This document shows, piece after piece, positions 5,576 through 55,621 of a stretch of DNA of 55,621 nucleotides; position 1 is the first letter of the stretch; each line of letters starts with the position of its first letter. This stretch comes from Bacteroidales bacterium (GTDB taxonomy: Bacteria > Bacteroidota > Bacteroidia > Bacteroidales > UBA10428): the NCBI GenBank assembly GCA_016926205.1, contig JAFGPB010000080.1, positions 1 through 55,621 of the forward strand, read 5' to 3'. The position numbers were made by a program, and so were the translations under genes. The notes below the pieces were generated by a model. The model did no database searches and was not told where the DNA came from. It was given only the letters and a program-made list of their open reading frames with translations.

Positions 5576-8230
5576 TCAAAGTATAAGCAGGTTTATTTTC
5601 TTATTGCCAAAATACTGAATGGTTGCAGGATGACAGGTAAATAAAAGGATCTGTCTGTTCTCTCCGAATTCATGGAAAATGCCTGCTGTTTTTTTAGCCC
5701 GCTCCGGATCGAAATTCACCAGTACCTCATCCACAATCACCGGTAACGGTTCAGTTTTTGTTTCGTATTCTTCAATGAAGCCCAACCTGAGACTGATAAG
5801 CAGCTGTTCCCGGGTTCCCCGGCTGAGCTGGTCTATCTTTTTAGCTGTTTCCCGGGAATCAAAAACAGTAATGTCTTTTTCTCCAAGGGAGATTTTAATC
5901 CTGCTGTATCTGCCGCTGGTAATTTCATTGAAATATTTGGCAGAGTTCCTGATAACAGCAGGCTGCTTCTCTCTCTCATAGTTCTCTTTAACTTCTGAAA
6001 GCAACTTTAGGGCAATCTTACCTGTGATCCATTCCCTGTAAGCCATGTTCAGCTTTTGCCTTTCTGTTTCCAGTGCTGTCATAACCTGAGCCAGTTCAGA
6101 TTCATTCTCAATGCGCTTCATATCGCCCTTCTTTTCCCCTATCTCCCTGATTTTGTCATCCAGAGTTTCACGCATTACAATTGTCTCCTCTTCCAATTTC
6201 TGTGATTCTTCTATGATATCCTGCTGCCTGTGCTTACTGAGATAATCCATTACTTCACCGGCCCGGTTCAAGCCTGCGATCGTTTCAATGGTCAATATAG
6301 CATTCATCCGTTTTTCAACCAGCTCTTTCACTGTTCTGTTTTGTTCATATTTCTTTCTGAGATCATCTTTATCTTTTGCATGAATTGATTTTAACAAATG
6401 ACTCATTAACTGTTTATTATCTTCAAGTTGTATTTGTGTTTTATTCAGTTCCTTAAGTCTGCCCGATAAAATACTTTGAAGTTCCTCCTTTCTTCTTTGC
6501 CGGGTGACTTCAGAATCGAAGTTCCGGACCATTTGACCTGCCAGTTTAATTGTACTGTCTTCCGGTGCATGGATCCCTGACACCCCCTCCAAATGCTTTA
6601 CTTCATCGTTAAATTTATTGATAAAAGGAATCCATTGTTCTGCCAGCTTTTTTGCAAGCTCGTCCCGCTCAACGATCTCCTTTCTAAGGTGTTTTATGAT
6701 ATCCAGGATCTCCAGGACCGCTTCTGGTGAAAGGGTCTTTTCAAGCATCAGATCCGTTTCCAGGTATTCCCCGAAACGGTTGGTCGTTTCTTCCCGTCTG
6801 TACGCAACATCGGACAGCTGTTTCCTGAGCTTATCAGGAAGACTTTCCCTGATGATGTACTTTCTGCTGAAAAATATCAACAGGGCAGTTAAGAAACTGA
6901 TACCGCCCAGAACGTAAAAGGTATAATAAAACAACGGTATCGCACCCATTAAAAAAATCACTGAACCCAGTATCATAATATTATTTGCATTGACAGGACT
7001 TTCCTTACTTTGCAAAATCTTCAGCTGGGCTTTAAGATCACGAGTGTTGTCATTCAAATGGTCAAATTCAGCTTTGAATTCACTGACCTTATCCCTATGG
7101 AAAATTTCATCTGTAAAACCGGAGATATTCTGTTCCGACCAGTCAGCACTGATCCGCATCAATTCCTGTCTGACTGACCGATTGATGCTGTTAATTTTTT
7201 CATTATGTCCGGCTTGTTCCAGGAGCGTTTGCTTGTACAACTCAATATTGGTCCTCAGATAATCAATGATATCAGAGTGGTTTAACAACTTGTCATTAAG
7301 ATCAATAGAGTCCATTTCTTCCTGTAATTCTTCAATACTGGGTACATCCTCACTTCCATCCTGCAGCGTCCGGATTATCTTGTGTATTGATCTTTCCTCC
7401 AGTTCCAGTTCGCTCAATCTCTGCAGCCCATCGACCGGATAATCCTGCAATTCCGGTAATGTTTTCAGGGTTTCGTCAATTCTTACAATGCTCACAAAAC
7501 TCTCATAACATTTGAGGTATTGGTCCAATTCTTCCTTTCTGGAGCGGAATATTTTCATTTTGTTTTCCAAATCACCAATGTCATATTCCAACTCCTTGAT
7601 CCGTTCCATCAAATCCGAGAACAAAGGAAGATTATTTTGAATTTCAATTAATTGTCTTTTCCAATCCTGAATACTGTTCAAAATGTCCGGAATTAACTGC
7701 TTACTGCCCCGGGGAGTATAAATTGCATCAATTCCTTTCTGAATCTCAGCCTCAACCTCATTTATGGAGATATTGCCCAATCCCAAACCAATACTGAATA
7801 TCCTGTCCTCGACCCCTGATGCGGAAAGTGATCTGATGTCCGTCAATTCATCAAGGGAAAAGGCATACACATTGTCAAAAATGTCTTTGTTTGCATTTCC
7901 GAGCAATTGAAACCAGAGACTCTCATTCTTTGAACTCTGACCTTCATAATGAAAGCTGATCTGGTCGTTTCCACTCCTTTCCAGAATTACTTCCTTGTTT
8001 GCAGCGATTTTTGCCATAACGCGTCCGCCATGACTTCCGCCATGAAACGGGTGCATGCGCTGATCCCTGAACCTGGGATAGCCAAAAAGGGTATACCTAA
8101 TAAATTTGAGTATGGTGGACTTACCTGCTTCGTTACTTCCGGTAATGATGTTCATCCCCTTTTTCAATCCGGTCAGTGAATAACCGTTAAAGATCCCGAA
8201 TCCGTCAATATGTATTTCCTGAATGATCAT
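5576..8230 (-). CDS. AAA/SMC-like ATPase, YhaN type (SbcC-like)
   Basis: 884 aa. Rad50/SbcC-like ATPases work with a nuclease of the Mre11/SbcD type in DNA end processing. The Walker A loop GSNEAGKS sits at residues 31-38. A long coiled coil fills the centre. The C terminus has the LSRGTREQL signature and Walker B (LPVIVDEVLVNFD). Two hydrophobic segments in the middle (roughly residues 420-465) interrupt the coiled coil and replace a zinc hook; such segments are known from YhaN proteins and suggest membrane contact. I chose the ATG at 8230 and not the longer frame from 8263, because MIIQEIHIDGFG is the normal family start and the ATG then overlaps the upstream stop as ATGA, showing translational coupling with the metallophosphoesterase gene. 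Confidence 0.9.
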   Translation of the reverse strand: MIIQEIHIDGFGIFNGYSLTGLKKGMNIITGSNEAGKSTILKFIRYTLFGYPRFRDQRMHPFHGGSHGGRVMAKIAANKEVILERSGNDQISFHYEGQSSKNESLWFQLLGNANKDIFDNVYAFSLDELTDIRSLSASGVEDRIFSIGLGLGNISINEVEAEIQKGIDAIYTPRGSKQLIPDILNSIQDWKRQLIEIQNNLPLFSDLMERIKELEYDIGDLENKMKIFRSRKEELDQYLKCYESFVSIVRIDETLKTLPELQDYPVDGLQRLSELELEERSIHKIIRTLQDGSEDVPSIEELQEEMDSIDLNDKLLNHSDIIDYLRTNIELYKQTLLEQAGHNEKINSINRSVRQELMRISADWSEQNISGFTDEIFHRDKVSEFKAEFDHLNDNTRDLKAQLKILQSKESPVNANNIMILGSVIFLMGAIPLFYYTFYVLGGISFLTALLIFFSRKYIIRESLPDKLRKQLSDVAYRREETTNRFGEYLETDLMLEKTLSPEAVLEILDIIKHLRKEIVERDELAKKLAEQWIPFINKFNDEVKHLEGVSGIHAPEDSTIKLAGQMVRNFDSEVTRQRRKEELQSILSGRLKELNKTQIQLEDNKQLMSHLLKSIHAKDKDDLRKKYEQNRTVKELVEKRMNAILTIETIAGLNRAGEVMDYLSKHRQQDIIEESQKLEEETIVMRETLDDKIREIGEKKGDMKRIENESELAQVMTALETERQKLNMAYREWITGKIALKLLSEVKENYEREKQPAVIRNSAKYFNEITSGRYSRIKISLGEKDITVFDSRETAKKIDQLSRGTREQLLISLRLGFIEEYETKTEPLPVIVDEVLVNFDPERAKKTAGIFHEFGENRQILLFTCHPATIQYFGNKKINLLIL

Positions 8231-9492
8231 GCTTTTCCTAAGATCTGATCCAGCAGCATCCATTTCGCTTTTTCAAAAAGCTCTGTTCTTTCATTTGCAT
8301 CTATTTCTGAAGTTTCTCTTTTAACGGCATATCTGTTGATATCTTCATCAAGTTCCTGTATCAAACGCACTTGTTTTACTTCATCCTGTTCATACACCTC
8401 AAAGGCTTGCAGCAAATCAGCCGTAAAATCCGATCCTTTTCTGATCTGATCGATATCAATATCAGGATTTGTCCTAACGCTGATCTGATCGATCCAGGTG
8501 AAATTTTCCCTTTCCAGCTGCCCTTCGTTAAAAAAGTCCATGAGCTGCCGTATTTCTTCCGGTTTGTTCAGCTGGGCATGCAAAGGTGTTCTGCCCGTGA
8601 AAGTAATCCTTAAGATATAGCTGTCGTTTTCGTTATAATCATCAATCCTGATCCTGGATTCCTGAATTTTATCCTGCAGTTTACCGGCTTCATGCACCCC
8701 TGACAGGTCTATTCCAACCTCTTCAAACCGGATCATATGGGTAGGTACGAATTTCATGGACGGATTGATACCCGGTATTATTTCCACCAGGCAACAACCT
8801 TTAGTCCCGGTTTCGCCAAAATCCCTGCCCTGTGTATTGCCCGGATATACGACTGCCGGATGCGAATCATGAACGATCTTTCTCTTATGAATGTGCCCCA
8901 GGGCCCAGTAATCAAAACCCCTGTTCATAACATCTTCCATCCTGAAAGGAGCATATTTTCGATGGGGTCCGGGTATGCCGACCGTACCGTGTAATATTGC
9001 AATCGAAACGGGAGATGCATTTTCCCGGATCCTGAATTCAAGAGCAAGATTCTCTCCGACGGCTTTTTTGCCGTAACTCACTCCATAAAGATCTGCAACC
9101 GGATCTTTTCCTCTTTTGTGTGTGTAATGTTCCACTCCGTATGCATCAAACCGGAATACATTGTCCGGAATCCGGATCGCATTGATCCATGAACCGATGT
9201 GATCATGATTACCGCACACAAAATAGGTTGCAATACCCTTGCCGGACAATTTTTTCAGTCCCGAAACGAACCTGAGCTGCGCGGAAAGACTTTTACTTTC
9301 ACTGTCAAAGATGTCCCCTGAAATAATCAGAAAATCCACGTTTTCCGTGATACAGCTGTCAATGATCTTTTCAAAGCTGTGAAAGGTAGCGTCCTTCAGC
9401 CTGGCTGCAAGTTCACGGTTCCAGTTGGCAAGTCCCTTAAACGGGGTATCCAGATGCAGGTCGGCAGTATGTATGAACCTGACTCTTTTCAT
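8227..9492 (-). CDS. DNA repair exonuclease-type metallophosphoesterase, YhaO/SbcD-like
   Basis: 421 aa from the chosen start. All metal-binding blocks of the calcineurin-like/Mre11 fold are seen: HTADLHLD near the N terminus, ISGDIFDS, FVCGNHDH, AILHGT and ALGHIHKRK. The protein is expected to be the Mn-dependent nuclease partner of the ATPase encoded just downstream, to which it is coupled by a 4-bp ATGA overlap. The frame is open to 9534, but the extra residues (FFRDGANDKATW) are not part of the family; the Met at 9492 places the DLH motif about ten residues in, as usual. The C-terminal 150 residues form the capping/partner-binding part and are less conserved. Confidence 0.9.
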   Translation of the reverse strand: MKRVRFIHTADLHLDTPFKGLANWNRELAARLKDATFHSFEKIIDSCITENVDFLIISGDIFDSESKSLSAQLRFVSGLKKLSGKGIATYFVCGNHDHIGSWINAIRIPDNVFRFDAYGVEHYTHKRGKDPVADLYGVSYGKKAVGENLALEFRIRENASPVSIAILHGTVGIPGPHRKYAPFRMEDVMNRGFDYWALGHIHKRKIVHDSHPAVVYPGNTQGRDFGETGTKGCCLVEIIPGINPSMKFVPTHMIRFEEVGIDLSGVHEAGKLQDKIQESRIRIDDYNENDSYILRITFTGRTPLHAQLNKPEEIRQLMDFFNEGQLERENFTWIDQISVRTNPDIDIDQIRKGSDFTADLLQAFEVYEQDEVKQVRLIQELDEDINRYAVKRETSEIDANERTELFEKAKWMLLDQILGKA

Positions 9493-13787: not shown

Positions 13788-13853
13788 CGGATATAAACTG
13801 AATCGAAAGGTGTTTAACAAATTGTTTGTAGTACATTATTAAATCCAATCATT

Positions 13854-16800
13854 ATGAGTATATACGCCAGTGCGGTCAAGAAACCGATAACCACGTTAAT
13901 GATCTTTCTTGCTGTCGTTGTATTCGGGATTTATTCCCTGATCAACCTTCCAATTGATTTGTATCCCGATATTGAGTTTCCGGCCATAACAGTAGTCACA
14001 ACATATAATGGTGCCAATGCTTCAGACATTGAAACCAACATTTCAATCCCTGTCGAAGATGCACTGAATTCCGTTGACAAGCTGCAGGAAATCACATCAG
14101 TATCCCGTGACAACATTTCAGTCCTTTTCGCAGAATTTGAATTTGAAACAGATCTTAGTGAAGCGGCTAATGAGATCAGGGATGCGCTTGCATTCATTGA
14201 AGAAATGCTGCCCGAGGGTGCCGGTAAACCGAATATTATCAAATTGAATGCAAGCATGATGCCCATTCTTTTCTACGCCATTACTGCAGATGAAAGTTAT
14301 GAGGGCATCGAAAAAATGTTGGATGAGAAAATCATTAATCCCCTGAACCGGATTGAGGGAATCGGATCCATAGGACTTGCCGGAACACCGATCCGGGAAG
14401 TATTGATCGATGTGGATCCAAAAAAGATGGAAGCTTACAATATGACCGTTGAACAGATTGGCAGCATGTTGCAGCTGGAAAATATGAACATGCCCATTGG
14501 CAACATCAAAATGGGAATGCTCAACTATCCCCTTCGTATTGAAGGTGAATTCAGCAGCAGTGATGAGATACAGAACATAGTAATAGGCAATCAGGCAGGG
14601 AAACCGGTATACCTTAGGGATGTCGCCACTGTGATGGATTCCATAAGGGAAATGTCAATAGACCAGAGGATAAATGGAGAGCGGGGAATCACCATGTATG
14701 TCATGAAACAATCAGGTGCCAATACTGTTAAAATTGCCCGCGAAGTAAGCAGGGAACTCGAAGGGCTGAAAAGTTCGCTGCCATCGGATGTCAATATCAA
14801 CGTAATTCTTGATTCAAGTGAATTTATCCGGGGATCCATTAATAACCTTACCGAAACCCTGATGTTTGCCCTGTTCTTTGTTATGATGGTCGTGTTCTTT
14901 TTTCTCGGAAGGTGGAGGGCAACGCTGATCATCGTCCTGACCATCCCTATTTCGCTTATTGTAGCCTTTATATATTTATACATTACGGATAATACCATTA
15001 ACATCATAAGCCTCTCATCGCTTTCCATTGCCATCGGAATGGTAGTGGATGATGCCATTGTCGTTCTCGAGAACATCAGCAAACATATTGACAGGGGCAG
15101 CAGTCCTCGGGAAGCTGCAATTTATGCCACAAATGAAGTTTGGCTTGCCGTAATTGTAACGACCTTAACGGTTGTTGCCGTATTCCTGCCCATGACCATG
15201 ATCGGGGGAATGACCGGCGTGTTGTTCAGGCAGCTGGGATGGATCGTTTCCATAACGGTTACAACTTCGACTATTGCCGCCATCACGCTCACCCCTATGC
15301 TGAGCTCAAAAATGCTCAGACTGAGACCGAAAAGCCAGATTAAAACCGGGATTAGCAAATATGAACAAATTGTCATTCCCTGGCTTGACAAACTCGACAG
15401 CCTGTATGAAAAAGCATTGCGGTGGAGCCTGCAAAACAAGCTCCTGATTACGGTCATCTCTTTCGTGATCTTTTTCGGCAGCCTGGCCCTTGCAACAGGA
15501 CTGAACACTACATTCATTCCGGAATCCGATGAAGGATACGTTACCATTGAAGCAGAATTGCAGACGGGTACCCGTATGGAGGAAACTGCGCGAATCGCAG
15601 GGAAAGTAGATAGTATCATCTATAACCTTGTTCCTGATGATCTTGAATTGCTTTCCTCTTCTGCAGGTTCTGATGAAAGCGGAGGTTTGATGGCCATTTT
15701 CCAGCAGTCGGGGTCCAATATGATCAATCACAGCATCAGCCTGACCAGTTCGGAAGACCGGGATTTCACGGTCTGGGATATCGCTGAACAGATCAGACTG
15801 GAACTTCAGAAAATACCCGAAATCATCAAGTTCAATGTTACCGCGGGCAGTGGAATGTCAATGACTACATCAACGCTGGATGTTGAAATTTTTGGTTATG
15901 ACATGGAACAGACCACAATGCTGGCGGACCAGATTTCAGATATGCTGGAAACTGTACCGGGAGCCAGGGATATTGAGATCAGCCGTGAAAAATCCAAACC
16001 GGAGCTCAGGTTTGAGCTCGACCGTGAAAAAATGGCTGCTGTGGGACTCAACACGACAACGGTTGCCATGGCATTGTACAATCGAATCAACGGACTCACC
16101 GCGACGCAGTACCGGGAGGCAGGAGATGAATATAATGTAGTTGTCAGATTCAATGAATCTTACAGAAACTCAATCTCTGATATTGAAAATATTGCGGTCA
16201 CAAACCCACTTGGGCATAAGATCAGGCTCAGTGAGATCGGAACTGTCAATGAGTACTGGTCACCTCCAAACATCGAAAGACAGGGCCGTCAGAGAGTTGT
16301 AACCGTTTCAACAACCCCTTATAAAGTTCCCCTGGGAAGACTTGCAGCTGACGTTCAGGCAGAGATAGACAAGCTGGATATCCCGCCAGGTGTCATCATA
16401 GAAATTGGAGGCGCTTATGAAGATCTTATGGAAAGCTTCACTGATCTCGCCATGTTGCTGGTTCTGAGCCTTGTATTGGTTTACCTGGTAATGGCTTCGC
16501 AGTTCGAATCATTCAAAATGCCCTTTATTATCATGTTCTCGATTCCGTTTGCATTTACAGGGGTCATACTGGCACTGTTCATTACCGGTACGGACCTGAG
16601 CGTCATCGCGGGTCTGGGTGCCATCATGCTGGTAGGAATTGCTGTTAAGAATGCCATAGTCCTGGTTGATTACATCAACCTGATGCGTGACAGGGGGTAT
16701 AATATCGATGATGCCATTGCGCTTGCCGGAAGATCCCGTCTGCGTCCCGTACTGATGACTGCAATGACCACGATGCTGGGTATGTTGCCCCTTGCGCTGA

Positions 16801-36798: not shown

Positions 36799-39762
36799 TC
36801 AACCGTCAGCATTTACCTGTAACGCCCTGAACAATATCTCCACAGGATGATATGCTTTTCTGCCCGTTCCATGTTCGATCTGCTCCCTGCAACTTGTTCC
36901 GCCTGCACAGATAAGAGCATGTGGATCAGCCTTTCTCACGGCAGGAAACAGGACCATCTCTCCGATTTTCATTGAAAGATCATAGTGTTTTTTTTCATAA
37001 CCAAATGCTCCGGCCATTCCGCAACAACCGGACGGGATCTCCTCAACGGTATAATTGTCGGGTATGGAGAGCATTTTTATCGTAGATTCTGTGGAGGCAA
37101 CAGCCTTTTGCTGACAATGTCCATGCAACAGGATGTGTTGCTGTTTTCGTGTAAATGAACTGCTGCTGATGTTGCCGGCTTCATATTCATGTGCGACAAA
37201 TTCATCAATCAGAAAGCAGTTCCCGGCAAGTTTCTCTGCATCTTCTTTCATGGTACTGTCTGCCAGATCGATGTATTCGTCACGAAATGAGAGTATGGAA
37301 GAAGGTTCGATTCCCAGAAGCGGAGTTTCTTCATTGATGAGCGGAGCAAATAGTTTCACATTTGTGTTTGCAAATTTCTTTGCCTTTCGGAGCATTCCTT
37401 TGGAAATACAGGTTCTGCCGCTTTCAGCATGCGGGATTGTATTTACATGATAGCCCAGTCTTGTCAGCAGAAGGATGGCGGATATGCCAATTCCTGTGTC
37501 AATATAATTGGTGAATTCATCGACGAACAAATATACTTTCCGGAATGGTTTTTTTTCAGCAGGGGTGAACTGAGCGTTTCCAGGATCCTGCTTGATCCAT
37601 CGGACAAGACTTTGATCTGAAATTCCGGGGATTTTTCGCCGGTTTGAAAATCCCATGAATGCCTTAAGAAGTGTTGCCAGGAATTCATTTTCCACCATCA
37701 TGTTGAATGGTCCGGGAAAACGCGAATTGAGCCTGTGTATCACAGGCAGGCGGGAAACAAGCCATGAGCGCAAAGGCACTCCGTTGATATCATAATAGTG
37801 CTGCAAAAACTCGGCTTTCAGTTTTGCCATGTCCACATTCGAAGGACACTCAGATTTGCATCCCTTGCAGGAAAGACAAAGATCCAGTATTTCATAGACT
37901 TCCTTCGCTCTGAGAGAATCCGGCGTGTTCATGTTGCTCAGGTATTCCCTCAACAGATTTGCCCTGGCACGGGTTGTCTTGTTTTCGTCAAGTGTTGCCA
38001 TGTAACTGGGACACATGGTACCTCCTGCAAGAACTGTTTTCCGGCAATCACCCGAACCATTACACATTTCAACATGATGCAGGATGTCTGGTGCAGGAGA
38101 ATAATCAAACACAACAGGGAACAATCTGATTCCTGAGGTGAGTTCCTTATAACGTAATGATGCAGTCATCGGCGGGGGATCAATGATCTTTCCCTTGTTG
38201 AAAATACCGTGCGGGTCCCAGGTATATTTAATGCTCCGCATCAGGTTATAGTTCTTAAACCCTATAATCACCGGAATAAATTCGCTGCGAACTCTTCCAT
38301 CACCATGTTCTCCGCTGAGCGATCCCCGGTATTTCTTTACAAGGTCCGCCACATCTGCCATCAGGTCACGCATCAGTCTGATCCCGCCACGGGTTTTAAG
38401 ATTGATGATGGGGCGCATATGCAGTTCACCGGTTCCTACATGTGCATGAAAAACACAATCGAGACCGTAACGTTCCAGAATTCTCTTAAAATCAGTTATG
38501 TACCCAGGCAGCAAATCCGGTCTCACGGCTGTATCCTCGATCAGGGAAAGGGGCTTTGCATCGCCTTGAATGTTGGAAAGAACGCCCAGTCCGGATTTCC
38601 TGAGTGACCAGACTTTTTCAATGTCCTTACCGGTGACAAGCGGGTAGAGATAACCAAGTTCCTTTTTTAACAACGTCTTTTCCAGATTTTTTTTCTGATC
38701 AATGACCTCTTTCATGGTATTGCCGGCAAACTCGACGATCAGAATGGCACCGGGATCACCCTGAAGAAAGAAACGGTTCCTGCGCTGTTCAATGTTCGCT
38801 TTTGTACAATCCAGGATGGTACGGTCCATCAATTCCACCGCGCGGGGACCATGCTCAAGGCATACCAGATTGGCTTCCAGCGCTTCCTCCAGGGTTTGAA
38901 AATGAATGCAAACCAATCCTTTTTCCCCGGGAGGCAATGGAACCAGATTCAGCTTCAATTCTGTAATAAAGGCCAGTGTCCCTTCTGATCCGGCCAGCAG
39001 AGTGCAGAAATTAAAAGGTATGCCACCGGCTGTAAAAGGGATCATCTCCAGCAGCAGGTCCAGCGCGTATCCTGTATTGCGTCTTTTTACAAGCGGATCG
39101 GGAAATTCCCGCCGGATTTCAGCCTGGTTCACCTCATCCTTAAGTATGTCGTATATGTTCTGATATATTCTATTTTCGAGACGATCCCCTTTGATCCTGG
39201 TCAGGAAATCCGCTTCCCCTGTCACTGGTCCGAATTCCGCTTCGGATCCGTCACTGAGTATGGCTTTTACGCTGATGAGATGCTCCCTCGTACTTCCATA
39301 AATCAACGAATGTGAACCACAAGCGTTGTTTCCGACCATTCCGCCAATCATGCACCTGTTTGAGGTTGAAGTCTCCGGTCCGAAAAAGAGTCCCCTTTCT
39401 GCAAGCTTCAGGTTAAGCTCATCCAGGATAACTCCGGGCTGAACCCTAACCCATTTTTCCGCTTCATTGATTTCCAGAATCCGGGTGAAATATTTCGATA
39501 CATCGACAACAATACCGCTCCCAACTACCTGACCACCAAGTGATGTGCCTGCGGCTCTGGGTATCAAAGCAATATGATGAGCATTTGCAAAGGCTATAAG
39601 CTTTTTAATATCACATGCTGTTGCAGGTAAGGCGACTGCTGCCGGCAATTCCCTGTAAATGGACGCATCAGTCGCATACAACCGGCAGGTGACAGGATCC
39701 TTATACAGATGGCCTTCCAGATCTTGTGAAAGTTTGCGGAGTGGTCCTGAAAGATCTGACAT
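36799..39762 (-). CDS. FAD-linked oxidoreductase with Fe-S and CCG domains, YdiJ / D-2-hydroxyacid dehydrogenase type
   Basis: 987 aa. Three parts: an FAD-binding domain of the vanillyl-alcohol-oxidase type (residues 30-200; PRAAGTSLGGQ, GNNACGSHSL), the FAD-oxidase C-terminal domain (about 230-530; HAHVGTGELHMRP, SGEHGDGRVRSE) and an Fe-S part with CxxCxxCxxxC in LDLCLSCKGCKSECPS, ending with CCG-type motifs (HGHCQQKAV, SGCCGMAGAFGYE, CAGGTSC). Such one-chain proteins oxidise D-lactate or D-2-hydroxyglutarate and pass electrons to the quinone pool or another carrier. Exact substrate is not decided by sequence. It stands alone on the minus strand, divergent from the pta cluster. Confidence 0.9.
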   Translation of the reverse strand: MSDLSGPLRKLSQDLEGHLYKDPVTCRLYATDASIYRELPAAVALPATACDIKKLIAFANAHHIALIPRAAGTSLGGQVVGSGIVVDVSKYFTRILEINEAEKWVRVQPGVILDELNLKLAERGLFFGPETSTSNRCMIGGMVGNNACGSHSLIYGSTREHLISVKAILSDGSEAEFGPVTGEADFLTRIKGDRLENRIYQNIYDILKDEVNQAEIRREFPDPLVKRRNTGYALDLLLEMIPFTAGGIPFNFCTLLAGSEGTLAFITELKLNLVPLPPGEKGLVCIHFQTLEEALEANLVCLEHGPRAVELMDRTILDCTKANIEQRRNRFFLQGDPGAILIVEFAGNTMKEVIDQKKNLEKTLLKKELGYLYPLVTGKDIEKVWSLRKSGLGVLSNIQGDAKPLSLIEDTAVRPDLLPGYITDFKRILERYGLDCVFHAHVGTGELHMRPIINLKTRGGIRLMRDLMADVADLVKKYRGSLSGEHGDGRVRSEFIPVIIGFKNYNLMRSIKYTWDPHGIFNKGKIIDPPPMTASLRYKELTSGIRLFPVVFDYSPAPDILHHVEMCNGSGDCRKTVLAGGTMCPSYMATLDENKTTRARANLLREYLSNMNTPDSLRAKEVYEILDLCLSCKGCKSECPSNVDMAKLKAEFLQHYYDINGVPLRSWLVSRLPVIHRLNSRFPGPFNMMVENEFLATLLKAFMGFSNRRKIPGISDQSLVRWIKQDPGNAQFTPAEKKPFRKVYLFVDEFTNYIDTGIGISAILLLTRLGYHVNTIPHAESGRTCISKGMLRKAKKFANTNVKLFAPLINEETPLLGIEPSSILSFRDEYIDLADSTMKEDAEKLAGNCFLIDEFVAHEYEAGNISSSSFTRKQQHILLHGHCQQKAVASTESTIKMLSIPDNYTVEEIPSGCCGMAGAFGYEKKHYDLSMKIGEMVLFPAVRKADPHALICAGGTSCREQIEHGTGRKAYHPVEILFRALQVNADG

Positions 39763-45355: not shown

Positions 45356-46738
45356 ATGACTATCTTATCGGATAAACAAACTGACATGACAGAAAAAGTG
45401 CACAGATACAAGGCTTATACATTGAGAAATTTTTTGCAGATCAAGCAGCTGATCAAACTTACCAGAGCAGAAATCAGGGATCTTGAGGTTGCCGGCAATG
45501 TACTTCCGTTTCGTGTCAACAATTATGTTGTTGACGAATTGATTGACTGGGACAACTACCGCGAAGACCCGATCTTCAACCTGACTTTTCCCAGAAAGGA
45601 AATGCTAACAACGGAGCATTTCACCCTGATGGATTCAACCTTAAGGGAACATGGTGACCCGGACGTGATCAATCAGATCAGACAGATCATTTATGACCGG
45701 CTCAATCCGCATCCGGCCGGGCAGCTTGACCTGAACATTCCTGAGGTCAACGGAAAGACACTGCATGGTGTTCAGCATAAATACAGGGAAACTGTATTGT
45801 TTTTTCCCAGTGCAGGACAGACCTGTCACAGTTATTGTACATTCTGTTTCAGGTGGCCGCAGTTTGTAGGGATCGACAATTTAAAACTTGCGACCAATGA
45901 ATCGGAAATGCTTGCTGCTTATGTTCAGAAAAATCAGGACATTACTGATGTACTCTTCACCGGCGGTGATCCGATGATCATGAATTACAAGACTTTTGAA
46001 AGATATATCGATCCGATTCTCAGGATATACAAAACCTGCGGACTTCAAACCATAAGGATCGGAACCAAATCCCTCGCCTACTGGCCGTATAAATTTACTT
46101 CAGATGATCAGGCAGATGATTTCATAAGGCTTTTTGAAAAGATCGTAAAAACCGGTATCAATCTGGCCTTTATGGCTCATTTTTCCCATCCGAGAGAATT
46201 GGAGACAAGAGCAGTGGAACAGGCCATCAGACGGCTCCGTGCAACAGGGGCACAAATCCGTACGCAATCCCCCATCCTCAGGCACATAAACGATAAACCC
46301 GAAATCTGGTCTGCAATGTGGCGAAAACAGGTAAATCTGAACTGCATTCCCTATTATATGTTCATAGCCCGTGATACCGGGGCAAAACATTATTTTGAGC
46401 TTCCCCTTGTGGAAGCCTGGGAAATATACAGACATGCCTACCAGAATGTAAGCGGTGTATGCAGAACGGTAAGGGGTCCCAGCATGTCATGCACACCGGG
46501 GAAAGTTCAAATACTCGGCGTTTCAGAAACCGGAACAGAAAAAATAATGGTTCTGCGTTTTATTCAGGGCAGGAATCCCGACTGGGTCGCCAAACCTTTT
46601 TTTGCACGTTACGACCCTGAAGCGACCTGGATGAATGAACTCAAACCTGCCTATGGCGAAAAATTCTTTTACGAAGATGAGCTTGAAAGCTTGTACAAAC
46701 GCAAAACGGCTGACAGCGAACAGTTTAATTTCGAATAG
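45356..46738 (+). CDS. KamA-like radical SAM protein (divergent lysine 2,3-aminomutase family)
   Basis: 460 aa. The radical-SAM cluster motif is Cys157-Cys161-Cys164 (TCHSYCTFCFRW), followed by VLFTGGDPM as in KamA. A Lys at 383 (SCTPGKVQI) stands where KamA has its PLP-binding Lys in a Gly-rich loop. The Asp seven residues before it, which holds the lysine substrate in KamA, is Ser376 here, and the other substrate Asp (near 340) is shifted by one. So the mutase chemistry may be kept but on another amino acid or compound. No kamD/E, kce or kdd genes are in the window. It begins 31 bp after buk, and its last codons form the first unit of a tandem repeat. Confidence 0.85.
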   Translation: MTILSDKQTDMTEKVHRYKAYTLRNFLQIKQLIKLTRAEIRDLEVAGNVLPFRVNNYVVDELIDWDNYREDPIFNLTFPRKEMLTTEHFTLMDSTLREHGDPDVINQIRQIIYDRLNPHPAGQLDLNIPEVNGKTLHGVQHKYRETVLFFPSAGQTCHSYCTFCFRWPQFVGIDNLKLATNESEMLAAYVQKNQDITDVLFTGGDPMIMNYKTFERYIDPILRIYKTCGLQTIRIGTKSLAYWPYKFTSDDQADDFIRLFEKIVKTGINLAFMAHFSHPRELETRAVEQAIRRLRATGAQIRTQSPILRHINDKPEIWSAMWRKQVNLNCIPYYMFIARDTGAKHYFELPLVEAWEIYRHAYQNVSGVCRTVRGPSMSCTPGKVQILGVSETGTEKIMVLRFIQGRNPDWVAKPFFARYDPEATWMNELKPAYGEKFFYEDELESLYKRKTADSEQFNFE

Positions 46739-46897
46739 AATATTGTTTTCAAAGATCAAGGACTTCGCCGAGCTGACAGCGAACAGTTCAATTTCGAATA
46801 GAATATTGTTTTTAAAGATCAAGGACTTCGCCGAGCTGACAGCGAACAGTTCAATTTCGAATAGAATATTGTTTTTAAAGATCAAGGACTTCGCCGA
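46710..46897. repeat. Tandem repeat, 3 copies of 63 bp, starting inside the kamA-like gene
   Basis: Units start at 46710, 46773 and 46836, each beginning CTGACAGCGAACAGTT and ending in AAGGACTTCGCCGA. Units 2 and 3 look identical; unit 1 differs at two positions. The period is 21 codons, and each unit contains the end of the gene with its TAG stop, so copies 2 and 3 are downstream duplications. Open frames run through all copies on both strands but are only by-products of the period. Confidence 0.95.
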
Positions 46898-46960
46898 AAG
46901 GCCGATTCTGAGCTTATCTGTAACACAACGGCTCTGATTTGCTGTTTTTTGCGGTTTTGA

Positions 46961-49735: not shown

Positions 49736-49808
49736 GATCCAGTAGCTCAGCAGGTAGAGCACATCCCTTTTAAGGATGGGGTCCAGGGTTCGAATCCCTG
49801 CTGGATCA
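49736..49808 (+). tRNA. tRNA-Lys (anticodon UUU)
   Basis: A 73-nt cloverleaf without encoded CCA: acceptor GATCCAG / CTGGATC with discriminator A at 49808; D arm GCTC / GAGC; anticodon arm CATCC / GGATG around CTTTTAA, giving anticodon TTT; five-base variable loop; T arm CAGGG / CCCTG with TTCGAAT. All stems pair perfectly. Its 3' end is copied at 55110-55123, so it probably served as integration site for the DNA to its right. Confidence 0.96.
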
Positions 49809-49809
49809 C
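49796..49809 (+). repeat. attL-like direct repeat (tRNA 3' end)
   Basis: CCCTGCTGGATCAC, the last 13 bases of the tRNA-Lys gene plus one. The same 14 bases occur in the same orientation at 55110-55123. Confidence 0.65.
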
Positions 49810-49822
49810 ATATATTAATCTT

Positions 49823-49859
49823 AAAGTCTTATATAATAAATATTTATAAGACTTTTTTT
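49823..49859 (+). terminator. Intrinsic terminator of the tRNA-Lys gene
   Basis: Perfect 11-bp stem AAAGTCTTATA / TATAAGACTTT with an 11-nt A/T loop, running into seven T residues. Only 14 bp behind the tRNA. It lies in the first bases of the A/T-rich island. Confidence 0.85.
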
Positions 49860-50089
49860 ATTTATACACCAATTTTTACACTCATTTTTGTTTTGTATGT
49901 TATCTCCGAAAACCATTCTGATTTACTGCAGCTTACAAGAATTGCACTTTTCTTTTAAATACGTTTATATTGCTTACTTTATATTATGTAGCACTGTCCC
50001 CGATACAAAAATCCCAGTGTTTACTTGGGTTTCGTCATTTTTTAGAAACATATTGGGAATATTTTCAACCTTGCTCTTTATATAGATTA

Positions 50090-50401
50090 TCATACCTCAG
50101 TGATTTCCCTAAATAATAATATCCCTCTTCCAATTAGGTCTTCGTAAAACTGACCTCTTTCCAAAATGTCATCATTCTCTGCCTCATAATACCAATTGTC
50201 TTTTATTCTTTTGATATTACTATTGTTCTCCAAGCCTTTTAGAATTTCAAGTAACTTCTTTGATGAAGTACTGCTTATATATTTTAACCGTAAATCCATA
50301 ATTACGGCATCTATATTTAATTCCTCAACCCATTCAATGAGCTGATTATAAAATTCAGCACATTTCTTTGGCATAGATCGTCCTTTAATTAGCAACCTCA
50401 C
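50090..50401 (-). CDS. SiaC-like (DUF1987) family protein, short N terminus
   Basis: 103 aa with GTG as start. The DUF1987/SiaC pattern is clear: LLIKGRSMPKKCAEFYNQLIEW in parts, the LKYISSTSSKKLLEIL block which holds the Thr/Ser phosphorylated in SiaC, WYYEAENDDILERGQFYEDLI and the end. SiaC is the phospho-target of the SiaA phosphatase and SiaB kinase controlling a diguanylate cyclase in Pseudomonas; no such partners are here. Usual members have 10-15 more residues before the GRS motif. In the same frame, five codons upstream, lies the TAG stop of the HEAT-repeat gene, so the start may have been lost or the two genes were once joined. Confidence 0.7.
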   Translation of the reverse strand: MRLLIKGRSMPKKCAEFYNQLIEWVEELNIDAVIMDLRLKYISSTSSKKLLEILKGLENNSNIKRIKDNWYYEAENDDILERGQFYEDLIGRGILLFREITEV

Positions 50402-50413
50402 GAAATGTTGATT

Positions 50414-51361
50414 CTATAATTCGTAGGTTCCATTAATGTCTAAACCAACAATCACTTCTGGAGAGTTCACGTTGCCAACGTTCACTTCGATATAATAACA
50501 CTTTTCATTAACCGACTTGGTCTTTATAAATTCCAATGCTTGTTTCTTGTTTTTTGCAGTATAAACCTCATAGGTAAGTTTCGTAAGAGTTCCAAGAATA
50601 ACGTCTTCTCGATATTTCATTTTTACAAATTTAACCCCTTTAATTTCCTTCTTCGGATCCTTTTCTTCTGTAATTAGATCAAGCGCTACTTTCTTTGCTT
50701 TATCATCTGCTTTAGTTGCCAGGAATATTTCTTTCAATTTTGTATTACTTAAATTAAAAACTTCATTTAATACATACATGCCTTTCCCACGTATTCGCTC
50801 AATATCTGTTTCAATAACACACTGAATAATTGGTTCAATAGCGCGGCGGTCTCCAATATTACCAAGTGCTTCAATTGCCGCGTATTGAACACCCCATGCT
50901 TTATCATGGAGTGTTTGGATTAATGGATTAACTGCTTCTTTTGCACCCATTTCTCCGAGTTTGATTGCTGCAAGTTCATGTATTAGTTCAACTTCCTTTG
51001 TGAGACTATCTTTCTGGTATCCTAAAGCATTTATCAACCCATCAATATCTTGCTTCTCTTTTAATTTCTCTATGTTTGGCTTTACTATACCCTTTTTCTG
51101 TATTTCTTTTCTTTCATTATCTTCAACTTTTACTTCCTCTTTTTCAACCCTTTTATTCTCATTTTCGAACAACGCTACATGGAAAACTGTTTTTGGAATT
51201 ATTTGTATAAATAAAGATATAATGACAAAACTTATTACAGCTCCTGCTATACCAGCAAAAAGCCCCCACTTCTGCCAAATAATATAACCACTAAGCCCTG
51301 AAAGTATCAAACAAGTAATAGACAATATACCCTCAATTGTTTCCTTTCTTTTATTTTCCAT
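50414..51361 (-). CDS. Membrane-anchored HEAT-repeat protein
   Basis: 315 aa. Two hydrophobic segments at about 10-30 and 33-55 anchor the protein, followed by a charged coiled region rich in Glu/Lys (70-105). Residues 110-235 are HEAT/PBS-lyase-like helices (LAAIKLGEMGAKEAVNPLIQ and YAAIEALGNIGDRRAIEPIIQ), which are protein-binding scaffolds. A C-terminal alpha/beta part (TKLTYEVYTAKNKKQALEFIK) is unassigned. Function unknown. It is 12 bp from, and in the same frame as, the SiaC-like gene, so the two probably share a transcript. Confidence 0.75.
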   Translation of the reverse strand: MENKRKETIEGILSITCLILSGLSGYIIWQKWGLFAGIAGAVISFVIISLFIQIIPKTVFHVALFENENKRVEKEEVKVEDNERKEIQKKGIVKPNIEKLKEKQDIDGLINALGYQKDSLTKEVELIHELAAIKLGEMGAKEAVNPLIQTLHDKAWGVQYAAIEALGNIGDRRAIEPIIQCVIETDIERIRGKGMYVLNEVFNLSNTKLKEIFLATKADDKAKKVALDLITEEKDPKKEIKGVKFVKMKYREDVILGTLTKLTYEVYTAKNKKQALEFIKTKSVNEKCYYIEVNVGNVNSPEVIVGLDINGTYEL

Positions 51362-51606
51362 GGCTTTAATTTTTCTATTGGGACCAATTGTGTAAGACTA
51401 ATTTACATATGCTTTTTTTATGACTATATACTCCTATATTGGAAGTATATGTATGTGTCTTTTGTCATCTTTATTCCCAACGAATACTGTACTTTTTCTT
51501 CGGCCGTAATAATAATAAATTAAATATTCAACTTAACGAATGGTGCTAAATTTAGGAAGTATTAAACATACCTCAAATACCACTATTTAAGGCGATCTTT
51601 ATCTTA

Positions 51607-52110
51607 TTACAATAACTCAACACCAATCTGTCCAATTTTTATGTCTTGACCTTCTTCATTGTTTTCCCTGTACTGGTAAAAATAGTTTAACAGAACGGGT
51701 TTTATATTATTTGGCGTTTCAAATATTATAAATCCTGTTTCTTTCTTGGGATAACCATCACTAAAATTTATGTTCGTTTGTTGTTGAAGTGAGAAATGCG
51801 ATTCTCCTTCATCATCTATTAAATGAGTTTTTGTTAATCGTCTTTCTGACATTTCAACTAATAAGTCATTTTTTTCGACTATAGAAATATGAATGAAAAT
51901 ATATACATTACCTTCATCGGGCTGTCTGTAAATTCTTGTCTGGCCTGTTATATTAGGTTCTTTGAGCCATTCAGGAAAAGTGGCAGTTGTTTCAACACTG
52001 TCCACTGTGACCAGGATTCTTTCATCTTCTCCATTGGATACTTGTGAATATGTATTTAGGCTTAGGAAGAAAAGGAATAAAAATGATGCTGAACAAATAA
52101 ATATTTTCAT
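51607..52110 (-). CDS. Hypothetical exported protein, 167 aa
   Basis: Signal peptide MKIFICSASFLFLFFLSLNT with cleavage near YSQ. The mature part is beta-rich with a stretch of charged residues (MSERRLTKTHLIDDEGESHF) and no recognised domain. It has no Cys motif. The 245 bp before it (51362-51606) hold no gene. Low G+C as the rest of the island. Real gene judged from the signal peptide and length. Confidence 0.6.
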   Translation of the reverse strand: MKIFICSASFLFLFFLSLNTYSQVSNGEDERILVTVDSVETTATFPEWLKEPNITGQTRIYRQPDEGNVYIFIHISIVEKNDLLVEMSERRLTKTHLIDDEGESHFSLQQQTNINFSDGYPKKETGFIIFETPNNIKPVLLNYFYQYRENNEEGQDIKIGQIGVELL

Positions 52111-52224
52111 GGCAAAGAAGTGTTTAAGAGTTCATTATTAAAACAAAGCATGATTAGGGTTAAAGGAAATTCAAATGAAAATGTGTGAATAATCATATAT
52201 ATTAAATCGTTTCCGATGCATTTG

Positions 52225-52668
52225 TTAAGTGGTTGATTTCCCCTTTATTTTTTCATTAACGTTATGTATGAAATTCTCCCGGTCATCTTTGTTCAAAGCC
52301 ATAAGATTGACCTTGGCATCATTCCCTTTTTGGCCCCGTAATATTGCCTTATTTTTTTTTGAAGTATCAATTGCCATTATGTCTTTCCATTTAAGAATTT
52401 TGGTACTTCCCCAATAAAATGTTGGGAATATCGTAATTTCATCATCTGATATCTTTATATAAATCCTGTTTTGCTTTTGAAATAAAATTTGTAGGAATGC
52501 AAAAACTGATATCGCGAGAAAAAATAAAAACGGGAATATGTTAGCGGCACCTGAAAAATATGATATCAGAAGTACGAGAGTCATTATAGTACCTATTATA
52601 ACAGCCACCAGATTTTGATTGGTATAGAACTTTCCCCATTTATATTCTTTAGAATTAAAAGTTTCCAT
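52225..52668 (-). CDS. Small membrane protein with PH-like domain, hypothetical
   Basis: 147 aa. Two adjacent membrane helices (about residues 18-40 and 43-63: VAVIIGTIMTLVLLISYFSG, FPFLFFLAISVFAFLQILF) are followed by an 80-residue cytoplasmic part, IYIKISDDEITIF, then KILKWKDIMAIDTSKKNKA, that looks like the bacterial PH-type domain of YcxB-like proteins. No function known. Preceded and followed by other minus-strand island genes with gaps of about 110 bp. Confidence 0.6.
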   Translation of the reverse strand: METFNSKEYKWGKFYTNQNLVAVIIGTIMTLVLLISYFSGAANIFPFLFFLAISVFAFLQILFQKQNRIYIKISDDEITIFPTFYWGSTKILKWKDIMAIDTSKKNKAILRGQKGNDAKVNLMALNKDDRENFIHNVNEKIKGKSTT

Positions 52669-52780
52669 AATATTACGTGTTAATTTGGTTTTAATTGTAA
52701 ACAGATTATCAATGACTTAGTATGCTATTGTTCAGCATATATTATTTCATCCACATGAAGTTAATAGGCCATTGAGCAGT

Positions 52781-53092
52781 CTAATCACTTTTAATTGAAC
52801 GGTTTTGAACTGCCTGGACAATTGCAATGATAAATAAAATGATAGCGGCCCAGCCTAACAAGCCTATTATAAGACCTGGTATTATTGCTGCAGCTTTGGT
52901 CTCAGGCCTTATACCCCCCGTGGCTGCTGCAGCAATGATTGTTAAAACCAGCAGTCCCAAACCCCATAAGGCAGTTTTTCCTGCTGGTTTCTTTTTTTGA
53001 ACTTTTTGTGGTGTTGTAAGATCTCTTCCACAATGTTTACATACAATTGCATCATCTTGAATCTCTTCTGCACAATAAGGACATTTTTTCAT
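52781..53092 (-). CDS. Zinc-ribbon protein with two membrane helices
   Basis: 103 aa. The first residues [14 protein letters not shown] and [10 protein letters not shown] form a CxxC...CxxC zinc ribbon; a Lys-rich linker ([12 protein letters not shown]) follows, then two hydrophobic helices at about 38-60 and 70-92. Such proteins are frequent and their role is unknown. It precedes the barrel gene's stop by 18 bp, so both could be in one transcript. Confidence 0.75.
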
Positions 53093-53109
53093 TGTTGTTT
53101 ATTTTATGG

Positions 53110-53856
53110 TTAAAAATATTTTCCCCAGGTTGCATTAAAGTTAAAAGTGCTGCCATTAAGCTTTTGTAATTCACCAGGATCAACAACTGTTGTACTTCCG
53201 GCCGATGATGAATACTTATAGTTAGCATAGTAATAGGTGAGACCTAAACGCAAAGACCAGTTTCTGGGAGGGCCAAATAGCATTTCAAATTCTCCTCCAA
53301 CATGAAATCCGATTGAGCCTTTATATTTCATTTTTAAATCTCCATCCGCTACATTGGTCATATCGGTCCATTCAATGTTCAAACTTCCAGGTATGTAATA
53401 ACCTGGACCACCGCCTATTTTCCAGTTGTAGTCCTTATTTTTTGAAGGGAAGACATAAAATAATGTGGAATTAATATAGTAGCGTGAAAATTTGGCATCA
53501 GCATTCTTTAGATTCTTTGAAAGGCTACTGCTTTGAAAAGATGTACTGAAATCGAGCTCAATATTTTTTGAAAGCATAAACCCAAAGATGATGCCTAGTC
53601 CACCACCTCCACCGGGACTCAGAGTTGCGCTATCAGCTTCTGATGTGTAAAACAAAGCGTGTTTATCAAAACCGAAACCAGCAACAACCGAAGCTCCTGC
53701 AAAATATTTTGGAGTTGATGTGGATTGTTGGACATTGGTTTCATTTTGACCGTTTGAAAAAGACAATGTGGAAAACATGAATATTACGAAGAAGAGAAAA
53801 AACACGATTTTAGGAATGCGTTTTCTGCCATCTGGTTTCAAATAATATGAATCCAT
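53110..53856 (-). CDS. Predicted outer-membrane beta-barrel protein, about 248 aa
   Basis: After an N-terminal stretch with a hydrophobic core (IVFFLFFVIFMFSTLSFSNGQ, preceded by 17 polar residues; the true start may be nearer to this core) the chain is made of amphipathic strands with Gly-rich turns (SPGGGGGLGIIFGFML, IELDFSTSFQSSSL, WSLRLGLTYYYANYKYS) and ends with Phe. This fits the OmpA-like/porin-type 8-strand barrels of Bacteroidetes. No specific function. Part of the A/T-rich island. Confidence 0.7.
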   Translation of the reverse strand: MDSYYLKPDGRKRIPKIVFFLFFVIFMFSTLSFSNGQNETNVQQSTSTPKYFAGASVVAGFGFDKHALFYTSEADSATLSPGGGGGLGIIFGFMLSKNIELDFSTSFQSSSLSKNLKNADAKFSRYYINSTLFYVFPSKNKDYNWKIGGGPGYYIPGSLNIEWTDMTNVADGDLKMKYKGSIGFHVGGEFEMLFGPPRNWSLRLGLTYYYANYKYSSSAGSTTVVDPGELQKLNGSTFNFNATWGKYF

Positions 53857-53939
53857 CGTTTAAGTTTATAATGTTATAGATTAAGAAAAAATTAGTCAGA
53901 CTCAATTTATAATGATCCATACGTAACTATGGAGATCAT

Positions 53940-54671
53940 CTACCAGACAAAGAAGCACTCGGGGATATTCAATATATCGGAACAGTTTAAACACGGATAG
54001 ATTTTTGTGGTTATACCGGCTACATGATACCCTTGATATTGATATTCTGAAACACTCTTCTGATTTGCACTAACATTTTCAACGATGACAGCTTTTCCAT
54101 CACGCCTCAAGATGTTACCGTTATAATCAAGACACAAAATATCTTCATTTTCAGGATTTTCATATACATCATAATGAATTGTATGTATCGTATCCGCAAT
54201 ACTTATATCTATAATATGAGCAGCAACACGTTGGAAGTTGTTATATTTAAAACTAACCCTTGCAATATCTTCTTCAGAAATATTTTTAATCACAATATCC
54301 GCTATCCTATTATATTCATCGATATGGGTAACGGTCGTAATGTAACATGTTTCATTATGAATAAGCTCTTCTTTGTATTTTGTAAGGTACAATTTGGCAC
54401 TGTCTGCCAGTTCACTGTTAGGGTAGTCGGTGATAAATTGTATCATCGATTCTACTGAATTAAGATCTTTTGCTTCCTGAAATTTATACTTCGTAAGATA
54501 CAAATTCGCACTATCTACCAGTTCGCTGTTGGGATGATCATTGATAAACTGAATCATCGATTCTATTGAACCAAGATCTTTTGCTTCCTGGAACTCTTTG
54601 TGAGCGCTATTACAACTTAATTGTAATAATAAGATGCTTAATAAAGCAAGAATGGTTTTCTTTGATATCAT
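53940..54671 (-). CDS. Lipoprotein with duplicated TPR-like motif
   Basis: 243 aa. A lipoprotein-type signal ends at Cys20 (LLLQLSC). Residues 27-63 and 64-100 are a 37-residue direct duplication (FQEAKDLGSIESMIQF / FQEAKDLNSVESMIQF, PNSELVDSANLYLTKYK / PNSELADSAKLYLTKYK), a helix pair resembling the 'tetratricopeptide-like PNSxxAxxA' motif of BamD/YbgF-type proteins. The remaining 140 residues are beta-rich and unassigned. It is the first gene of the island's minus-strand row when read from the right. Confidence 0.72.
   Translation of the reverse strand: MISKKTILALLSILLLQLSCNSAHKEFQEAKDLGSIESMIQFINDHPNSELVDSANLYLTKYKFQEAKDLNSVESMIQFITDYPNSELADSAKLYLTKYKEELIHNETCYITTVTHIDEYNRIADIVIKNISEEDIARVSFKYNNFQRVAAHIIDISIADTIHTIHYDVYENPENEDILCLDYNGNILRRDGKAVIVENVSANQKSVSEYQYQGYHVAGITTKIYPCLNCSDILNIPECFFVW
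54372..54593 (-). repeat. 111-bp in-frame tandem duplication in the lipoprotein gene
   Basis: Two units, 54483-54593 and 54372-54482, encode the 37-residue repeat. The unit sequences are similar but not identical, so the duplication is not very recent. Confidence 0.8.
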
Positions 54672-55204
54672 AAAGCTGTAAAAGTTAGTTTAGTCTTTAA
54701 ATATAATGAATATAAATAGTATGTCCAATAAATTCTTATTATTATCCTATTATAGTTGATGAAATACAAAAAGGATTTTAAAATCAAATAATATTCAATA
54801 GAATGCTTTTTGTTATACAACCTTATTAGACGTTCATCATTGCAGGTAGTATAATTGAAAATGATTATTTTTAATTATAATATGGTTTGGCAATTAATGA
54901 TTAGAAAGCAAATGAAAATATTGAATAAAAAACATTCGCAGCTTCACTACGTCCAGGGTTTTACGCGATTGACTTTCATGGTTTTATTCTGTATTATTGT
55001 TAGGTATAATATTACAGCTAACATTCTACCTTTTAATTTAGGCAACTTCAAGATTTTAACTGATCCTCAATTAGTCATTAATGGTATTTTAATTGATAAT
55101 GAAGGAATACCCTGCTGGATCACTGAAATTCGTGGTATTGCATTAAAAATTAAGTATATGCAAGGCAATGGAAGATTAAGTTCTATTGTACAGGTTCTTC
55201 AGAC
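54672..55204. other. A/T-rich intergenic region containing the right att-like repeat
   Basis: 533 bp. The plus-strand frame 54855-55226 begins with TTG or ATG at 54861 and runs through the att-like copy; it has no domain and I do not accept it as a gene. Apart from the repeat at 55110-55123 nothing is recognised. Confidence 0.4.
55110..55123 (+). repeat. attR-like direct repeat (copy of tRNA-Lys 3' end)
   Basis: CCCTGCTGGATCAC, identical to 49796-49809; with one extra A the match extends leftwards to GAAT. Only the T-arm 3' strand, acceptor 3' strand, discriminator and one base are present, as expected for a tRNA-targeted integration remnant. Confidence 0.65.
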
Positions 55205-55489
55205 TTACCCCAGCATTTCTTTCTGATTTCTTCCTTTTGTTCCGGGCATATCAAATCCTTTTTCAGTTTCATTTAAAATTCTTGTCCAAATTGCACCCAT
55301 CAAGTTATCCTGCGATTCAGCAACTATGCACAAATCCGTATCCTTTCCAAGATCCTTTATGCAATATGGTAATTCTGGTATTTTAATAATTTCTTTATCA
55401 GACTTCTCATGTCCTTTCGCTATAAAGATTGCCTCATACAGAAAATTATCCAAATCAGATATTTCAGTTTTTTAGATTTCACGAATTAT
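55205..55489 (-). pseudogene. Remnant of a GNAT acetyltransferase gene
   Basis: The residues DNFLYEAIFIAKGHE, then PELPYCIKDLGKDTD and GAIWTRILNETEKGFD are the N-terminal part of a common GNAT N-acetyltransferase type. Upstream the frame continues the family start as IIREI, then a TAA at 55474-55472, then KTEISDL; the codon where Met is expected is ATA (55489-55487). After GFD the family pattern stops and only 14 unrelated residues follow, so the acetyl-CoA-binding motif is missing. Lost start, internal stop and missing 3' half indicate a pseudogene, probably cut by recombination at the island border. Confidence 0.6.
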
Positions 55490-55621
55490 TTTTCAATTTA
55501 TCAGACTGATAGCCTGGCAATTAAACATATTTGCTGTTAAGCAAAGTGGCTTATTAATAAAATTCCAATATATCCTTATGTTTTAAAGCTTCTTGATAAA
55601 TTGTCCCTTTAGTAATAAAAG

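Follow-up and report, generated by a model that had tools for sequence, protein, structure and literature searches.

A tRNA-Lys 3′ end repeated inside A/T-rich accessory DNA of a Bacteroidales bacterium: a probable composite, decaying genomic island

Results

The tRNA-Lys gene and its repeated 3′ end

The window analysed here is the entire contig C10 (55,621 b) of a Bacteroidales draft genome of 2.24 Mb, which is held in 113 contigs and is 88% complete. ARAGORN finds one tRNA gene in it, tRNA-Lys(TTT), at nt 49736–49809 on the plus strand; the other Rfam matches in the region were not credible. The final 14 bases of this gene, CCCTGCTGGATCAC (nt 49796–49809), recur exactly and in the same orientation at nt 55110–55123, 5.3 kb away, as the original prediction had stated. 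The 14-mer is G+C-rich, and the match ends exactly where the tRNA ends. The next-best matches in the window carry 3 mismatches. In the whole draft genome the only two exact copies are those of the window, and a single copy with 1 mismatch lies on contig C17. By chance, about 8e-6 exact copies are expected in 5.8 kb under a regional order-2 Markov model.

Outside the 14 bases the two sites are unlike: the preceding 60 bases of the tRNA, like the flanking DNA on both sides, match no better than background. The distal copy has no tRNA-type terminator, is adjoined by no palindrome or other terminator, and is followed by no backbone. A wider tRNA pseudogene at nt 55050–55123 was rejected because its alignment is no better than that of random island segments. 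A DUF433-like reading frame across the 14-mer was also rejected, the frame having no Pfam match and a genome-wide family search giving no site there. In G005, the nearest relative, the annotated tRNA-Lys includes an encoded CCA end (L044 nt 2251–2326); this end is not encoded in the tRNA-Lys of the window's genome or of the other relatives.

Composition and genes of the accessory region

An A/T-rich accessory region extends from the tRNA-Lys over nt 49810–55621 and runs off the end of the contig. The G+C content per kb is 0.44–0.49 across 44–49 kb and 0.30–0.36 from 50 kb onward, and GC3 is 0.25–0.32 in the island genes versus 0.39–0.54 in 29 backbone ORFs (backbone about 0.49). A foreign composition thus starts at the tRNA-Lys, and the change anticipated at 49.8 kb is seen near there in both measures. 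The DNA between the repeats is A/T-richer, as had been claimed, but the low G+C is not limited to it: it begins at about 49.4 kb, in the intergenic DNA ahead of the tRNA-Lys, and persists beyond nt 55123 to the contig end at nt 55621.

Seven plausible island genes with intact reading frames were found, all of them on the minus strand, which agrees with the description of the region as carrying minus-strand accessory genes only. The first encodes a SiaC-family protein of 103 aa (nt 50090–50401; Pfam PF09345, E 8.6e-19), and the second a HEAT-repeat protein of 315 aa (nt 50414–51361; Pfam HEAT_2 and HEAT_PBS), for which an N-terminal membrane segment can be read from the sequence. The other five belong to a cluster (nt 51607–54729) with a diverged duplicate on contig C37. 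It begins with an exported DUF4352-like protein of 167 aa (nt 51607–52110), 65% identical to the C37 copy, which itself passes the DUF4352 cut-off. Then come a small membrane protein of 147 aa with a weak DUF2244 match (nt 52225–52668; 62% identical), a zinc-ribbon membrane protein of 103 aa (nt 52781–53092; Pfam Zn_ribbon_3; 88% identical), and an exported barrel-like protein of 248 aa (nt 53110–53856; 74% identical). The last gene (nt 53940–54671; 48% identical) encodes a lipoprotein-like protein of 243 aa with weak BamD/YbgF-like matches. Inside it a 111-nt unit is duplicated in tandem at nt 54372–54593, its copies being 81% identical; the C37 copy of the gene has a single unit. PADLOC reported no defence system beyond weak HEAT-repeat matches, and plasmid, phage and viral collections gave no match.

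Right of the distal 14-mer the A/T-rich accessory DNA continues with a degraded gene fragment of 82 aa on the minus strand (nt 55205–55474). The fragment is acetyltransferase-like by reading of its sequence, has no Pfam match, and is 36–42% identical to longer ORFs of relatives. Since accessory DNA and not backbone follows the 14-mer, nt 55110–55123 is not the right border of the island.

Distribution of the cargo genes

The C37 copies of the five clustered genes (48–88% amino-acid identity) lie at L043 nt 13841–16546, partly broken and amid remnants such as a DUF4143 fragment. That contig has no tRNA, and no 14-mer repeat lies beside the cluster copy. The 248-aa protein is scattered unevenly across the order: a profile search of 295 genomes placed it in 9 of the 183 genera sampled, as distant relatives, and among the sampled congeners in this one only. 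Two scans of genome contigs found none of these relatives, which came from the profile search alone; their short flanks contain neither a tRNA nor any further gene of the cluster. The patchy distribution supports acquisition. None of the sampled relatives has the island genes of the window at the tRNA-Lys site.

Comparison with G005 and the link to contig C98

G005, a member of the same genus, shares its gene order with the window as far as the 3′ end of tRNA-Lys, where the synteny stops. In G005 only 197 bp separate the tRNA-Lys from a glycosyltransferase gene, which is followed by a cytochrome c nitrite reductase-like gene (both names are readings of the sequences). The counterparts of these genes in the window's genome lie in matching order at C98:29936–36004, and contig C98 is therefore likely to be the continuation of C10. 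The backbone resumes on C98, past a further A/T-rich stretch, so that a closed 5.3-kb island with its right border at nt 55123 is not supported. With C10 and C98 as neighbours, the accessory region would comprise no less than 5.8 kb on the first and some 2 kb on the second. The acquisition of DNA at the tRNA-Lys 3′ end, which had been proposed, is supported by the composition change, the stop of G005 synteny and the 197 bp gap. A relative with an empty site had been expected to carry the DNA right of nt 55123 directly behind its tRNA; G005 does provide a near-empty site, but the next gene there is one shared with C98. Of the alternatives offered by the original prediction, the best fit is one unit of a larger island.

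The C98 side yielded no copy of the tRNA end. Nine relatives have over 7 kb of sequence after their tRNA-Lys, and recombinases of the groups searched for are missing from all of these stretches, so this tRNA is not a busy target.

A recombinase remnant and a cassette-like unit on C98

From the glycosyltransferase gene to its end (nt 37953), C98 is A/T-rich, with a G+C content of 0.28–0.37. A tyrosine-recombinase gene lies here at about C98:36306–36739, broken by a frameshift and a missing stretch. The statement that the island has no integrase therefore holds for the window only. The remnant is nearest to congener recombinases: its core is 55–56% identical to those of L080 and L087, and its C-terminus is 82% identical to that of L087. 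L087, the nearest intact relative, matches the NCBIfam models for XerA and for integron integrases with scores under the cut-offs; to TIGR02249 it aligns in two blocks without the IntI-specific insert.

Adjoining the remnant is a cassette-like ORF (C98:36959–37741), oriented as are the remnant and the island genes of the window. It has the ends GTTATGGGC and GCCCATAAC, followed by a 22-nt inverted repeat, and the whole unit spans L072 nt 7877–8894 (C98:36877–37894). Its hairpin folds only modestly better than shuffled sequences (z −1.25), and longer contigs, scanned for hairpins of the attC type, gave no convincing ones. Boundaries like AAACAAGTTATG recur directly downstream of several related recombinases in relatives; contigs break there as well, and G006:C86 ends exactly at GAGTTATG. 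Complete integrons are rare in Bacteroidetes according to the IntegronFinder 2.0 study (PMC9024848). The C98 unit is therefore called integron-like and no more. If this side lead is confirmed, units of the cassette-like kind that neighbour recombinases lacking the IntI insert could escape IntI-keyed searches.

Discussion

The region right of tRNA-Lys is, in our judgement, probably a composite, decaying genomic island in which the distal 14-mer is an internal att relic. Foreign A/T-rich DNA would have entered the 3′ end of tRNA-Lys by integration of the site-specific, tyrosine-recombinase type, the incoming element restoring the tRNA end and displacing the former one outward. At nt 55110–55123 there would then be either the displaced tRNA end or an end brought by a later, second element, and this copy may mark an internal border between two successively inserted pieces. 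It would now lie inside a larger accessory stretch that reaches past the contig end to C98, where the broken recombinase gene and the cassette-like gene would precede the backbone. We infer the site-specific origin of the 14-mer, the order of insertions and, from the gene order of G005, the adjacency of C10 and C98; an att role of the 14-mer is plausible. The original integrase may have acted in trans or may have disappeared, because the site of the C98 recombinase itself looks integron-like.

Such an island is favoured by the exact repeat, the shift in composition, the stop of synteny at the tRNA, the near-empty site of G005 and the accessory DNA of C98 with its recombinase remnant, as well as by the lack of the island genes at this site in the sampled relatives and the patchy occurrence of the 248-aa protein. 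Against it count a repeat of 14 bases that does not extend further and a distal copy with neither terminator nor backbone after it. The C98 side without a tRNA-end copy, the C37 cluster without tRNA or repeat, and the 9 relatives without a recombinase weigh in the same direction.

The island could be real and the 14-base match a coincidence in acquired A/T-rich DNA, neither delimiting the island nor serving its movement. We regard this as unlikely, though well worth weighing. The match is short, does not extend and is not followed by backbone; moreover, such matches were sought by the reader of the sequence, and a second exact 14-base repeat, ATATTTCATTTTTA, occurs within the same 6 kb. A chance match had been called improbable, and the expectation for a G+C-rich 14-mer in the local DNA agrees, but this selection effect keeps coincidence as a rival. 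Against coincidence stand the exact stop of the match at the tRNA end, the lack of a further exact copy in the genome, and the comparison with 15 relatives, none of which has a copy of the tRNA end several kb downstream of tRNA-Lys, even at 11 bases. Copies of the tRNA-Lys end can also arise at the locus without an island: the congeners G009 and G007 have a 17-base copy with a terminator 95–180 bp behind tRNA-Lys, joined to REP-like palindromes (L049 and L050). A local REP-associated duplication, later pushed 5.3 kb away by insertions, is nevertheless an improbable source of the window's copy, and the weaker reading, because that copy has neither palindrome nor terminator.

A reading of the entire region as an integron-like array of cassettes, with the window genes as the distal ones and the tRNA incidental, is highly improbable. 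The bounded ORF on C98 with its inverted repeat and shared orientation speaks for an array. However, boundary and hairpin searches found no attC-like site between the island genes of the window; their coding strand has no GTTATG or GTTGTG boundary and there are no attC-like hairpins between the genes, of which five travel as a single cluster. We would also give little credence to a more elaborate form of the composite island, in which tRNA-Lys serves as a platform where an integrase-less unit bounded by tRNA ends and moved in trans sits beside an integron-like site for cassettes, on which XerA-type recombinases devoid of the IntI insert act.

The composite island resembles tRNA-targeted islands and other tyrosine-integrase elements in its insertion at a tRNA 3′ end, the direct repeat of that end, the foreign composition, the accessory cargo and the near-empty site in a relative. 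It differs from them in that the repeat in the window measures just 14 bases and lies within the accessory region, an intact integrase is missing, the distal att was not found, and the region is split over two contigs. Sedentary chromosomal integrons share with C98 a recombinase remnant beside a single-gene unit with attC-like ends. Unlike in them, only one such unit was seen on C98, the window part has no attC-like sites, and the recombinase is XerA/integron-integrase-like without the IntI insert, as judged on L087 since the C98 gene is broken. The locus is a member of a common, ordinary kind of island. Its analysis indicates that a repeat of a tRNA end need not be the edge of an island; comparison with one relative placed the right border on a different contig, and what had looked like a lack of integrase became a broken recombinase further out.

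Other repeats were seen in this material. At the contig end of L048, from a third congener besides G009 and G007, a 26-bp unit, TGATCATGAGCGAAGCGAGTAATCCC, is present in tandem repeat. In the window, near-identical repeats of about 66 bp occur at nt 46635–46937, after the end of an aminomutase-like gene (nt 45356–46738), and can be recognised in a short ORF by recurring peptides of the ELTANSSISNRILFLKIKDFAE type.
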